The translations under genes and the position numbers were made by a program. From assembly GCF_017993425.1 (NCBI RefSeq), contig NZ_JAGOMQ010000034.1, positions 1-40,522 on the forward strand: a stretch of 40,522 bases of DNA, read 5' to 3'. Positions 1 through 20,804 of this stretch are shown here, piece by piece. This DNA is from Amaricoccus sp. (GTDB taxonomy: Bacteria; Pseudomonadota; Alphaproteobacteria; Rhodobacterales; Rhodobacteraceae). Position 1 is the stretch's first letter; each line of letters begins with the position of its first letter. The notes beneath the pieces are model-generated. The model did no database searches, was not told the DNA's origin, and was given only the letters and a program-made list of their open reading frames with translations.

Positions 1-2
1 AC

Positions 3-319
3 ACTGCACGACAGGAGCCGGTCGCCGCCCGAGGCCGCGTCGCTCCCCCCGACCGAAGCGGGCTCTGCCCGCGATGCTGCGGCGCGACAAGCGAAAGCAA
101 GGCTTTCGCCGCGCCGACGGCTGGAGCGCGTTGGCGCGTAAGCCGTAGGGGGTCCAGATTTCTCCGTCGCGCGCAATCCGTCCGTGATTGCCCCGGCGAG
201 CGCGGAATCGCGCTCGCCCCCCGAGGGGCGATCGCGGACGGATTTGCCACGGGTCAAATCCGTCTGGCGTCACCGTCCCGCACTCTCCCGACCGGGGTTT
301 CTCTCCACTGTCGTGCAGT
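3..319 (+). repeat. 317-bp terminal-inverted-repeat element, copy 1
   Basis: The segment starts with ACTGCACGACA and ends with its exact reverse complement. It matches the copy at 20117-20433 with 8 mismatches and no gaps by eye over 317 positions, and more distant copies lie at 14265-14581 (inverted) and 20449-20762. It contains several hairpins: GCGGGC arms at 58-63/67-72; a two-part stem at 80-116 with inner arms GCGAAAGC/GCTTTCGC (91-98/102-109); and a nested 70-nt palindrome at 175-244. Open frames inside it look accidental. There is no recognisable transposase, so it would be non-autonomous if mobile. The stretch 1-427 holds only this repeat and the flank motif at 340-391. Confidence 0.85.
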
Positions 320-339
320 GTGGGCCTCGTGGACGGTAA

Positions 340-391
340 TCTCCGGTTAACTTGGAAATCAATGGGTTAGCGAGTTTTCACGCGTGAACAG
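340..391 (-). repeat. Conserved flank motif, site A
   Basis: Read on the minus strand, this begins CTGTTCACGCGTGAAAA, with the 12-bp perfect palindrome TTCACGCGTGAA at 377-388. It continues through GCTAACCCATTGATTT to GGAGATTACC. Close matches on the plus strand lie at 20044 and 40111. The distance from the first C of the motif to the CTGCACGAC end of the adjoining repeat is 73 bp here and 74 bp at 20044. A second GTTCACGC half-site lies directly upstream (minus sense). Function unknown; it could be a recombinase or regulator binding site belonging to the repeat. Confidence 0.6.
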
Positions 392-14168: not shown

Positions 14169-14264
14169 AGCGGGCGGATTCCGCAGGAAACCGCGCTTCT
14201 CGCCGGGACGGCGGCCATCCGGTTGGAACGGCGGGAAAAACCCGGGCTGGAACGCGGCTGGCAC

Positions 14265-14581
14265 ACTGCACGACAGTAGAGCCGAAGCCCGGCCGGAAGC
14301 AGGTCGCGACGCCGATGCCAGACGGATTTGACCCGTGGCAAATCCGTCCGCGATCGCCCCTCGGGGGGCGAGCGCGATTCCGCGCTCGCCGGGGCGCTCA
14401 CGGACGGATTGCGCGCTTCCGGAGAAATCTGCGCCCCTCACGGCTTCCGCGCGCAACCGCGCTCCAGCCGTCGGCGCGGCGAAAGCCATGCTTTCGCCTG
14501 TCGCGCCGGGCCTCGCGGGCAAGCCCGCTTCGGTCGCTCGGGGCCTCGTGGAGTCAGCAGGGCAGACAGGTGTCGTGCAGT
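14265..14581 (-). repeat. 317-bp terminal-inverted-repeat element, copy 4 (inverted)
   Basis: Ends ACTGCACGACA (14265-14275) and its reverse complement (14571-14581) bound exactly 317 bp. The inverted ends extend to 14 bp here (14262-14275 and 14571-14584). The core runs opposite to copies 1-3. It groups with copy 3 by its outer segments (for example the CCCTG and GGCCCCGAGCGACC stretch, read minus). The nested palindrome is at 14341-14410. It occupies the rimO/Rid intergenic region. The rest of the gene-free stretch 14133-14815 holds a short direct repeat GGAATCCGGC near 14592-14612 and a T-run, but nothing else I recognise. Confidence 0.85.
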
Positions 14582-14815
14582 GTGGCGGCTGGAATCCGGC
14601 CGGAATCCGGCTTGCCACTTTTTTACGGGCGGTTAACGGCGGCGGCCGCCGTCAGGGCGCCGCCTCCGGCGGGGCTTGCCCGGTCGAGGCGCCGGAGAGG
14701 CTGCGCGACATCGGATGCCGGCGGCCCCCGAGGCGGCCCTCGATCTGCGGCGGCGCATTGCGCGGGCGGGGGCGTCGCCGCTATGTGGGCGCGTCCGCAA
14801 CAGGAGACCGCACCC

Positions 14816-19006: not shown

Positions 19007-20011
19007 ATGGTCCCCATGGTCCCGGGCCCGCGCAACCTGATCACCGACGTGGCCCCGCTGCGGGTGGGCAACGCCGCCGAGGCGCGGCTGAAGTCCGGGG
19101 CGACGGTGCTGACGGCGGATCGGCCGTTCACCGCGGCCGTCCACGTGATGGGCGGCGCGCCGGGGACGCGGGAGACCGACCTGCTCGCGCCGGGGCTGCT
19201 GGTCGAGGCGGTCGACGCGATCGTGCTCGCCGGCGGCTCGGCCTTCGGGCTCGACGCGGGCTCCGGCGTGGCGGACGCGCTGGCCGCGGCGGGGCGCGGC
19301 TATCCGGCCGGGGGGCATCGGGTGCCGATCGTGCCGGCGGCGATCCTCTTCGACCTTGCGAACGGCGGCGACAAGGCCTGGGCGGTCAACCCCTATCGCG
19401 GCCTCGGGGCCGCGGCGCTGGCCGCCGCGGCGGAGGATTTCGCGCTCGGCTCCGTCGGGGCGGGGACGGGGGCGATGACGGCGCGCCTCAAGGGCGGGCT
19501 CGGCTCGGCGTCGCTGCGGCTCGCGACCGGCGAGACGGTGGGGGCGCTCGTCGCGGTCAACGCCATGGGCGAGGCGGTGGTGCCGGGCGGGCGGGAGTTC
19601 TGGGCGGGGGTCTTCGAGATCGGCGACGAGTTCGGCGGGCTCGGGCCTGCGGGCCGGCGCGTCGCGCCGGGGATGCCGCCGGGCAAGCCGGGCCCGGGCT
19701 TCCACGCCGGCAACACCACGATCGCCATCGTCGCGACCGACGCCGGGCTCGACAAGGCGGCGGCGCGGCGGATGGCCGAGGCGGCGCAGGACGGCATCGC
19801 CCGGGCGCTGGTGCCGTCGCACTCGATCAGCGACGGCGACCTCGTCTTCGCCGTGGCGACGGGCGCCCCCGGCGAGGTCCATCCCCGCCGCCGCGCCGAG
19901 CTCGGCCACGCCGCCGCGCTGTGCCTCGCCCGGGCGATCGCCCGCGGCGTCCACGCGGCGACCCCGGCCCCGGGCGACCTGCTGCCGTGCTGGAGCGCGA
20001 TGGCCGGCTGA
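19007..20011 (+). CDS. P1-family aminopeptidase/esterase (DmpA/ThnT type)
   Basis: This 334-residue N-terminal nucleophile enzyme of peptidase family S58/P1 has the segments NLITDVAPLRVGNA, VLAGGSAFGLDAGSGV and GRGYPAGGHRVPIVPAAILFD, followed by the autocleavage region HAGNTTIAIVATDA. In this family the proenzyme cuts itself before a Ser or Thr, which becomes the nucleophile. Here a threonine occupies the position (GN|TT), as in ThnT, rather than the Ser of DmpA. The last motif SHSISDGDLVFAVATG is also typical. The start may be 19007 or 19016 (both ATG). Natural substrates are unknown; relatives release N-terminal amino acids or beta-peptides. It sits 4 bp after the SDR gene. Confidence 0.88.
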   Translation: MVPMVPGPRNLITDVAPLRVGNAAEARLKSGATVLTADRPFTAAVHVMGGAPGTRETDLLAPGLLVEAVDAIVLAGGSAFGLDAGSGVADALAAAGRGYPAGGHRVPIVPAAILFDLANGGDKAWAVNPYRGLGAAALAAAAEDFALGSVGAGTGAMTARLKGGLGSASLRLATGETVGALVAVNAMGEAVVPGGREFWAGVFEIGDEFGGLGPAGRRVAPGMPPGKPGPGFHAGNTTIAIVATDAGLDKAAARRMAEAAQDGIARALVPSHSISDGDLVFAVATGAPGEVHPRRRAELGHAAALCLARAIARGVHAATPAPGDLLPCWSAMAG

Positions 20012-20043: not shown

Positions 20044-20116
20044 CTGTTCACGCGTGAAAATTGCGTAAGCCATTGATTCTACGTAGGGGTAAATGGGAGA
20101 TTACCCGCGTGACCAG
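20044..20116 (+). repeat. Conserved flank motif, site B, with spacer to the repeat
   Basis: It starts CTGTTCACGCGTGAAAATT (palindrome TTCACGCGTGAA at 20047-20058), then GCGTAAGCCATTGATT, and includes GGAGATTACC shortly before the repeat. It is closely similar to site A (read minus, 391-340) and more distantly to site C (40111). The distance to the CTGCACGAC end at 20118 is 74 bp. GCGTGACCA at 20107-20115 recurs at 20439-20447, beyond the other end of copy 2. Confidence 0.6.
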
Positions 20117-20433
20117 ACTGCACGACAGGAGCCGGTCGCCGCCCGAGGCCGCGTCGCTCCCCCCGACCGAAGCGGGCTCTGCCCGCGAGGCTGCGGCGCG
20201 ACAAGCGAAAGCATTGCTTTCGCCGCGCCGACGGCTGGAGCGCGTTGGCGCGTAAGCCGTAGGGGGTCCAGATTTTTCCGTCGCGCGCAATCCGTCCGTG
20301 AGCGCCCCGGCGAGCGCGGAATCGCGCTCGCCCCCCGAGGGGCGATCGCGGACGGATTTGCCACGGGTCAAATCCGTCTGGCGGCGCCGTCCCGCACTCT
20401 CCCGACCGGGGTTTCTCTCCACTGTCGTGCAGT
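20117..20433 (+). repeat. 317-bp terminal-inverted-repeat element, copy 2
   Basis: It has the same orientation and length as copy 1 and differs at 8 positions by eye. Its ends extend to 15 bp of perfect inversion here (CCAGACTGCACGACA at 20113-20127 against its complement at 20423-20437). The 9-bp direct repeat GCGTGACCA flanks it (20107-20115 and 20439-20447), so it could be a target duplication or simply the unit of a tandem array with copy 3. The nested palindrome lies at 20289-20358. Confidence 0.85.
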
Positions 20434-20448
20434 CTGGCGCGTGACCAC

Positions 20449-20762
20449 ATTGCACGACGCCTGCCCTGCCGGATCCACGCGGCCCCGAGCGACCGAAGCG
20501 GGCTTGCCCGCGAGGCCCGGCGCGACAAGCGAAAGCACGGCTTTCGCCGCGCCGACGGCTGGAGCGCGGTTGCGCGCGGAAGCCGTCAGGGGTGAAGATT
20601 TCTCCGGAAGCGCGCAATCCGTCCGTGATCGCCCCGGCGAGCGCGGCAACGCGCTCGCCCCCCGCAGGGGCGATCGCGGACGGATTTGCCGCGGGTCAAA
20701 TCCGTCTGGCGTCGGCGTCGCGACCTGGTTCCGGGCGGGCTTCGGCTTCACCGTCGCGCAGG
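20449..20762 (+). repeat. Terminal-inverted-repeat element, copy 3
   Basis: This 314-bp copy lies head-to-tail after copy 2, with less perfect ends (ATTGCACGACG and CGTCGCGCAGG). Its internal hairpins are retained: inner arms GCGAAAGC/GCTTTCGC with loop ACG, and the nested palindrome at 20616-20686, whose stem is fully paired and whose apical loop is GCAA. It belongs to the same subfamily as copy 4. No gene is present between 20012 and 20880. Confidence 0.8.
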
Positions 20763-20804
20763 GGGTCACGAGGCCCGCGTGACGCGGGCTGGACCCTTGC
20801 CGGC

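Follow-up and report, generated by a model that had tools for sequence, protein, structure and literature searches.

An abundant Amaricoccus MITE with insertion-sequence ends, a structured core, and a recurrent spacing from a gene-end palindrome

The 40,522-nt stretch of DNA analyzed here (hereafter "the window") corresponds to contig C46 of a 4.24-Mb Amaricoccus genome assembled into 102 contigs (G000), and carries four copies of a MITE of ~323 bp, bounded by 14-bp inverted ends (CACACTRCACGACA...TGTCGTGYAGTSTG) and without a gene. Copies 1 (1..322, + strand) and 3 (20114..20436, + strand) belong to subfamily A, copies 2 (14262..14584, − strand) and 4 (20446..20765, + strand) to subfamily B. 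All four are present where a preliminary description had placed them, i.e., at 3-319, 14265-14581, 20117-20433, and 20449-20762, but the lengths of 317 and 314 bp given there fall short of the full extent. Comparing the flanks of many copies placed the true ends 3 nt further out, with CAC or CAG before and GTG or CTG after, hence an end consensus of CAC/CAG + ACTRCACGACA ... TGTCGTGYAGT + STG and a 14-bp inverted repeat. Copy 1 thus consists of 3-319 plus these outer bases, with the first base (C) of its left end missing at the contig start. The inverted ends had been called perfect, which holds for three copies but not for copy 4, whose ends are degenerate (ATTGCACGACG and CGTCGCGCAGG). Similarly, a pair with 8 differences in 317 positions does exist, as does a second subfamily, but the numbers 2 and 3 had been swapped: 3-319 and 20117-20433 are identical at 309 of 317 aligned positions, and 14265-14581 and 20449-20762 make up the other subfamily (93% identical without gaps and 91% with gaps). 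Between subfamilies, identity without gaps is 85–88%.

Each copy contains a structured core recognized by a covariance model (R1), located at 81..264 (+) in copy 1, 14321..14507 (−) in copy 2, 20195..20378 (+) in copy 3, and 20519..20706 (+) in copy 4. Copy 2 sits within another palindromic repeat, between the two halves of an 8-bp target-site duplication (14254..14261 and 14585..14592, both +) identified by comparison with the empty site in the sister species G003. Copy 3 is framed by a 9-bp duplication (20105..20113 and 20437..20445, both +; 8 of 9 positions identical), the right half of which lies between copies 3 and 4, so that this tandem has a spacing of 3 + 9 + 3 nt; to the right of copy 4, no repeat matching the 9 bp at 20437..20445 was seen. 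The left duplication of copy 1 is not visible because this copy begins at the contig edge. Finally, the palindrome TTCACGCGTGAA of a gene-end motif is found 54 nt from the right end of copy 1 (377..388, −) and 55 nt from the left end of copy 3 (20047..20058, +). No promoter or terminator consensus was detected between window positions 19900 and 20900.

A search of the whole genome, suggested in the preliminary description, revealed many further copies sharing these ends. The element ends were found 173 times at ≤1 mismatch (vs 1 for the reversed pattern), the exact core hairpin pattern 138 times (vs 0 for the reversed pattern), and R1 detected at least 150 cores. Used as queries, copies 1 and 2 yielded at least 50 matches each in their own genome (best 40 of 339 and best 40 of 362 candidates scored, respectively), and the counts from these two queries and from R1 are lower bounds, the searches having scored 40, 40, and 150 candidates. 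The intact elements analyzed below were drawn mostly from the best-scoring search matches. We also considered a 440-kb sample, i.e., the window and most of contigs C92 and C4, which were picked for their length and were both known beforehand to contain copies. It included 27 cores (23 in 400 kb of C92 and C4, 4 in the window), and would therefore extrapolate, roughly, to ~250 cores genome-wide.

Although no transposition event was observed and mobility is read here from sequence comparison, several lines of evidence bear out the earlier proposal of a mobile element: duplicated 9-bp targets, an empty site for one copy, and an insertion sequence (IS) with the same end. Intact elements measure 311–338 bp (n = 60, a set that keeps some tandem and alternative-end rows), and are flanked by exact 9-bp direct repeats in 26 of 60 cases, or in 39 of 60 if ≤1 mismatch is allowed, for cross-copy expectations of 0.03 and 0.12, respectively. 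Other duplication lengths (5–8 and 10–12 bp) were exact in 0–2 of the 60. At the one site tested, that of copy 2, the sister species G003 displays a clean empty site, with a single copy of the 8-bp duplication. Tandem pairs occur at five loci (L006, L013, L016, L021, and L026), where the inner ends lie 14–16 nt apart (~3 + 9 + 3) with the duplication between the partners, and in a sixth pair (L054) the spacing is 5 nt. When loci with a shared neighbor were compared between species, 1 of 101 pairs (L088/L156) was alike on both flanks, and since the elements do not align even there, insertions look lineage-specific. Candidate targets of another kind, namely hairpins in general, were rejected: 39 of the 60 elements entered this comparison, with a mean of 11.05 for inverted repeats across the target point, compared to a cross-copy value of 12.28, and 294 of 300 permutations were at least as high as observed. 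No match was found for copy 3 in plasmids, or for the end-pair pattern in viral contigs. A further repeat containing CCTCCGTCGNGNAGCG adjoins the insertion sites of L004, L026, L030, and L053; it resembles the MITE ends and is perhaps a related older element.

These same data bear on whether the copies could result from a larger segmental duplication or from an artefact of the assembly, for which the position of copy 1 at a contig end might speak. This explanation is refuted: the flanks are unrelated from copy to copy, each with its own 9-bp duplication, the site of copy 2 is empty in G003, and the 23 cores of the two large contigs come in addition to the four of the window.

A plausible source of transposase is available in the same genome. 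Five contigs break off within a different element that bears the end of the MITE, at the contig start in C8, C19, C22, and C23 and at the contig end in C101; all five correspond to the transposase-start end, and the other end and the body of this IS were not found in the assembly. On C101, the first 78 codons of the transposase (P0001) are readable. This 78-residue fragment scores below every Pfam and NCBIfam threshold, with transpos_IS4_2 as the best NCBIfam model (12.3 bits), and is 65% identical to the corresponding part of P0002, a protein of G007 that is above cut-off for DDE_Tnp_1 and for the NCBIfam IS4 model (NF033591; 193 bits against transpos_IS4_2, cut-off 152). Outside the genus, IS4-family elements on plasmids of Cereibacter azotoformans (L106) and Roseomonas mucosa (ISLpn9-like, L107) begin with exactly CACACTACACGACA and, like the MITE, are flanked by 9-bp duplications (9/9 and 8/9 identical, respectively). 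Unlike the MITE, both are full-length with a transposase gene; the IS of the Amaricoccus genome itself is cut off at contig ends. The 311 nt of this IS available on C101 are similar to the MITE ends along the outermost 14–15 bp; the only other local match between the two, one of the same weak score, lies elsewhere. The MITE is therefore not explained by a mere deletion within the portion of the IS visible on this contig. At the start of contig C23 (L083), an IS end and a MITE copy stand in tandem with 7 nt between their outer ends.

The interior of the MITE is a structured, covarying repeat of ~190 nt with a wider distribution than the ends. R1, which was built on 25 cores from four genomes and applied at E ≤ 0.01, detected this core in 7 of 11 Amaricoccus genomes, with 56 matches in G007, 29 in G006, 20 in G003, 4 in G005, 3 in G004, and 1 in G009 besides those of G000, and no match in G001, G002, G008, and G010. 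At the DNA level, copy 1 matched 7 of 41 genomes, all of them Amaricoccus. The exact hairpin pattern occurred in 1 of 394 genomes of a family sample, namely its own, and was absent from the one other Amaricoccus genome in that sample. Among named genomes, the core pattern was found in at least six stretches, with A. macauensis DSM 101730 the only genome among the matches listed. The repeats of A. macauensis (G006) have the central 190-nt core in common with the MITE and not the ends. This difference is systematic: ends of the IS type, searched over 150 nt with ≤3 mismatches allowed, were present on both sides of 66 of 72 own copies, and on one side in 5, compared to both sides in 0 of 74 copies from G003, G005, G006, and G007, where this loose test gave a one-sided end in 3 of 74. 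Local alignment of the flanks found inverted repeats above the 95th percentile of cross-copy pairs in 1/15 own copies, 0/22 in G006, 1/15 in G003, 0/15 and 2/18 in two G007 groups, and 1/4 in G005. We gave preference to the direct end search because local alignment is blind to ends common to all copies, as the own copies illustrate. Core relatives with other stem sequences exist in G007 (L159–L178) and G003 (L126, L132, L136, and L140), and the loop CCACGGGT is the same in most of those from G007. Other candidate ends in G007 and G003, TGATACC...GGTATCA, were suggestive in a few copies, with no constant duplication, and were not retained; if they hold, the core would be bracketed by different ends in different species.

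The stems of the core covary. Two-sided changes affect 22 of 53 pairs (vs 9.5 in shuffles, s.d. 1.8) and 80 cells (vs 21.1 in shuffles), and 96.1% of cells are paired (vs 31–42% when slid), all for a structure drawn from the same alignment, which favours it. Together with the at least 150 core copies, this agrees with the structured repeat, common in the genome, of the preliminary description, which had offered a mobile element or a structured repeat as alternatives; the data support both at once. Selection on the core as a functional RNA or 3′-end structure, e.g., a transcript-end element for which the MITE would be a vehicle, could be one reason for this covariation. Such a role would agree with the excess of G-U over A-C cells on the core strand (57 to 11 across both alternative pairings, where a single inherited pair contributes 21 of the 57; in A2, the alignment fitted to the model, the counts are 93 and 19), and with a middle arm (columns 171–178) able to pair with either the 5′ or the 3′ arm. 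The three arms change together in L042, L032, L033, and L039, less exactly so for the 5′ partner; the 5′ pairing is kept in 5–8 of 8 pairs, against 10–11 of 11 for the 3′ pairing, and this weaker 5′ conservation counts against such a role. In addition, hairpin-templated repair or correction during replication could also make arms covary, and no Rfam 15 family matched the window at the gathering threshold, the best weak match, near copy 2, being whalefall-1 with 16.1 bits for a cut-off of 37.

The position of the core relative to genes, here predicted with a codon-usage caller trained on the window rather than taken from annotation, is also relevant to this question. Mechanical open reading frames cross the copies, yet no called gene overlaps the core in any of 72 own copies, consistent with the absence of protein-coding genes noted earlier. 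These 72 copies comprise 33 in convergent, 29 in tandem, and 4 in divergent regions, and 6 at locus edges. In the 440-kb sample, intergenic regions ≥60 nt with a MITE were convergent, tandem, and divergent in 9, 11, and 1 cases, compared to 32, 98, and 59 for regions without one; in G005, 2 of 4 copies were in divergent regions. This avoidance of genes and divergent regions by own copies fits both tolerated insertions and a 3′-end role. In three sets of copies from sister species, gene 3′ ends are close by (medians of 24 nt in G006, 9 in G003, and 36 in G007a), as would be expected for a 3′-end function, but in G000 the median reaches 142 nt. Moreover, the orientation of the core relative to genes is random, with cores in tandem regions in the same and the opposite direction in 14 and 15 cases in G000, 6 and 7 in G006, 4 and 5 in G003, and 0 and 4 in G007a. 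Overall, we regard a selected RNA or 3′-end function of the core as doubtful, if worth keeping in view.

The palindromes beside copies 1 and 3 are part of a wider pattern. They belong to a directional 47-bp motif found after genes, GTG-TTCACGCGTGAA-WATTNNNTAAGYCATTGATTT, and its palindromic center, CACGCGTG, occurs 48–80 nt outside one end of 44 of 65 intact copies, mostly within the 47-bp motif. These 65 copies are what remains of 71 element rows, at one each, after nested alternative ends were dropped, and they provide 45 distinct motif flanks for 44 elements (one flank tabulation has 141 rows, with each element counted on both strands). From the center of CACGCGTG to the outer end of the MITE, the distance is 59–62 nt at 42 of the 45 distinct sites, and 57, 57, and 54 nt at the others. 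The end facing the motif is the left one in 21 cases and the right one in 24. The 9-bp duplication shows a single preference, for G in its first position (26 of 45), and conservation is absent on the far side. The IS behaves alike in two of five flanks, with gaps to the palindrome of 54 nt (C8) and 53 nt (C19); the flanks at C22, C23, and C101 are without the motif, and at C23 another MITE lies directly next to the IS. Next to the single Cereibacter (L106), Roseomonas (L107), and G007 relatives, no conspicuous palindrome was seen at the fixed offset of 60 nt.

Conversely, motifs were surveyed in the 440-kb sample, where 21 detections reduce to 18 sites if a palindrome detected in both directions is counted once. 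Ten of the 18 have a MITE core edge 119–143 nt from the center, equivalent to a MITE end near 60 nt (the two arms measure 59 and 77 nt), and the remaining 8 lack a core edge in that range; a motif is found within 400 nt of 10 of the 27 cores, damaged and tandem copies included. The gene behind the palindrome is oriented toward it at 16 of these 18. The same sample contains TTCACGCGTGAA 17 times, compared to 0 times for 124 loci from other Amaricoccus genomes (377 kb, overlaps unmerged), and TTCACGCGTGAA thus appears to be a repeat of the own species, as far as seen. The gene-end motif had no match in plasmids or viral contigs, the TTCACGCGTGAA string was not found in the literature searched, and RNA folding of three examples (z = −1.36, 0.44, and −1.72) indicated no clear hairpin. 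At six loci, AACACGCGTGTT, ATCACGCGTGTT, or ATCACGCGTGAT takes the place of CACGCGTG. An AT-rich palindrome of the GTTATAATATAAC type lies between motif and insertion point in L003, L010, L051, L066, L072, L073, and L076, and at G000 C92:178952-179084 (L222) a single MITE is preceded by two successive motifs, separated by 121 nt and each with CGCTGAGCGGGGTG in front of it. Of the 21 intact copies without CACGCGTG, 4 have a tandem partner, and the other 17 have neither motif nor partner. Look-alike dyads first noted by eye beside the latter do not support a general dyad rule: a perfect 7-bp dyad was present at 58–62 nt in 1 of 17, compared to 0 or 1 elsewhere.

An ordinary MITE without aiming would offer a simpler account, in which insertion is random, insertions at harmless gene-end places survive, and the motif merely marks gene ends. 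The 0 of 72 own copies in called genes, the convergent and tandem skew of MITE-bearing regions, which would follow from the avoidance of promoters, and the 21 of 65 intact copies without the motif are all compatible with it. Survival, however, cannot yield 59–62 nt at 42 of 45 sites in both orientations, and random insertion into a 4-nt window is expected at ~2 in 10,000 (an estimate based on 18 motif sites per 440 kb). Since the spacing is constant to a few nt, for either orientation and across hardly conserved sequence, it is not explained by the survival of harmless insertions and rather points to a motif recognized at a distance when the target is chosen, and we consider unaimed insertion unlikely. 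Alternatively, motif and MITE may belong to a single larger unit and be moved or recombined together, which would account for their joint occurrence at constant spacing. We judge this highly improbable: the stretch between motif and MITE, duplication included, is hardly conserved, the duplications are particular to each copy, the motif is faced by the right MITE end in 24 cases and by the left one in 21, and 8 of 18 sampled motif sites have no MITE at that distance. Fixed-offset, aimed transposition is what these patterns suggest.

Taken together, the explanation we favor, at a probability of about 0.9, is that of a MITE moved in trans by the IS4-family transposase of an IS from the same genome, with IS ends around an older core and with aimed insertion behind the spacing. 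The transposase would recognize the 14-bp ends (CACACTRCACGACA) and make a 9-bp staggered cut, giving rise to 9-bp direct repeats; the ends, the duplications, and the one empty site are direct observations, and the action of the transposase on the MITE is the step that we infer. Given that the 311 nt of IS on C101 are unlike the MITE interior and that sister species have cores without these ends, the IS ends would have come to bracket an older structured repeat, which was then amplified. Insertion would be aimed at ~60 nt from the center of the CACGCGTG palindrome, a spacing seen for most intact copies examined and for 2 of 5 IS flanks, perhaps through a protein bound at the palindrome, with a host protein, the transposase, and DNA shape as candidates for the aiming factor. 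A more specific version appears somewhat better than even to us: an IS4-family system for which a bound sequence some way off sets the target, so that insertions of both IS and MITE, whatever their orientation and with hardly any preference at the cut, fall ~60 bp from the CACGCGTG of a directional gene-end motif, itself a repeat seen in this species alone, and in which a structured repeat of independent origin makes up the MITE interior and has acquired IS ends.

To our knowledge, insertion at a fixed distance from a recognized site has no IS4-type case, and is known for Tn7-like systems. We likewise found no claim of fixed-distance insertion by an IS4-type element in the titles and abstract starts returned by literature searches, and no literature naming both "Amaricoccus" and "insertion sequence". 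In the TnsD pathway of Tn7, insertion occurs at a constant distance from a recognized sequence beyond a gene end, as in the Amaricoccus system; unlike the latter, which is IS4-type, makes a 9-bp duplication, and inserts in both orientations, Tn7 relies on five proteins (TnsA–E), makes a 5-bp duplication, and inserts in one orientation. REP/BIME, ERIC, and Correia repeats also form many intergenic, structured copies; the ends and duplications of the present element are those of an IS4-family MITE. Tn7 is mentioned as a single-site element in one report (PMC10969869).

MITEs that have ends and 9-bp duplications in common with a resident IS are already known from MITEAba12. This 113-bp element, mobilized by ISAba12, is present in ≤22 copies per genome at AT-rich targets, shares its ends with the resident IS, and has 9-bp target duplications in 36 of 90 copies, with no orientation preference and no sequence trend in the duplications (PMC6382973). 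The Amaricoccus MITE resembles it in being short, with IS-shared inverted ends and 9-bp duplications, no orientation preference, and no sequence trend in the duplication, and differs from it in its 190-nt structured core, which sister species have on its own, and in its constant distance to a motif. If the proposed reading is true, it describes a compact system that directs insertions to harmless sites downstream of genes, with 8 of 18 sampled sites free. Since the core occurs within a single genus both bracketed by IS ends and free of them, it is a natural case in which to ask whether insertion sequences capture intergenic repeats.

The closest precedent seen is ISRm22, an IS4-family element of Sinorhizobium meliloti that inserts into REP itself (10 of 10 in a table, nine copies in the text; PMC1525189). 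On the reading proposed here, both would be alphaproteobacterial IS4-family systems aimed at a repeated palindromic intergenic sequence, with the difference that the Amaricoccus MITE inserts ~60 nt outside its palindrome, in hardly conserved sequence. Only three copies (L049, L061, and L231) were seen inside another palindromic repeat. The palindromic intergenic repeat around copy 2 (GGCTGGAATCCGGCTTGCCACTTTTT...) occupies window positions 14200-14262 and 14585-14650, and received copy 2 and two other copies (L061 and L231) at about the same point; it has more matches in G003, two of them within 100 nt of core copies (C41 and C187).
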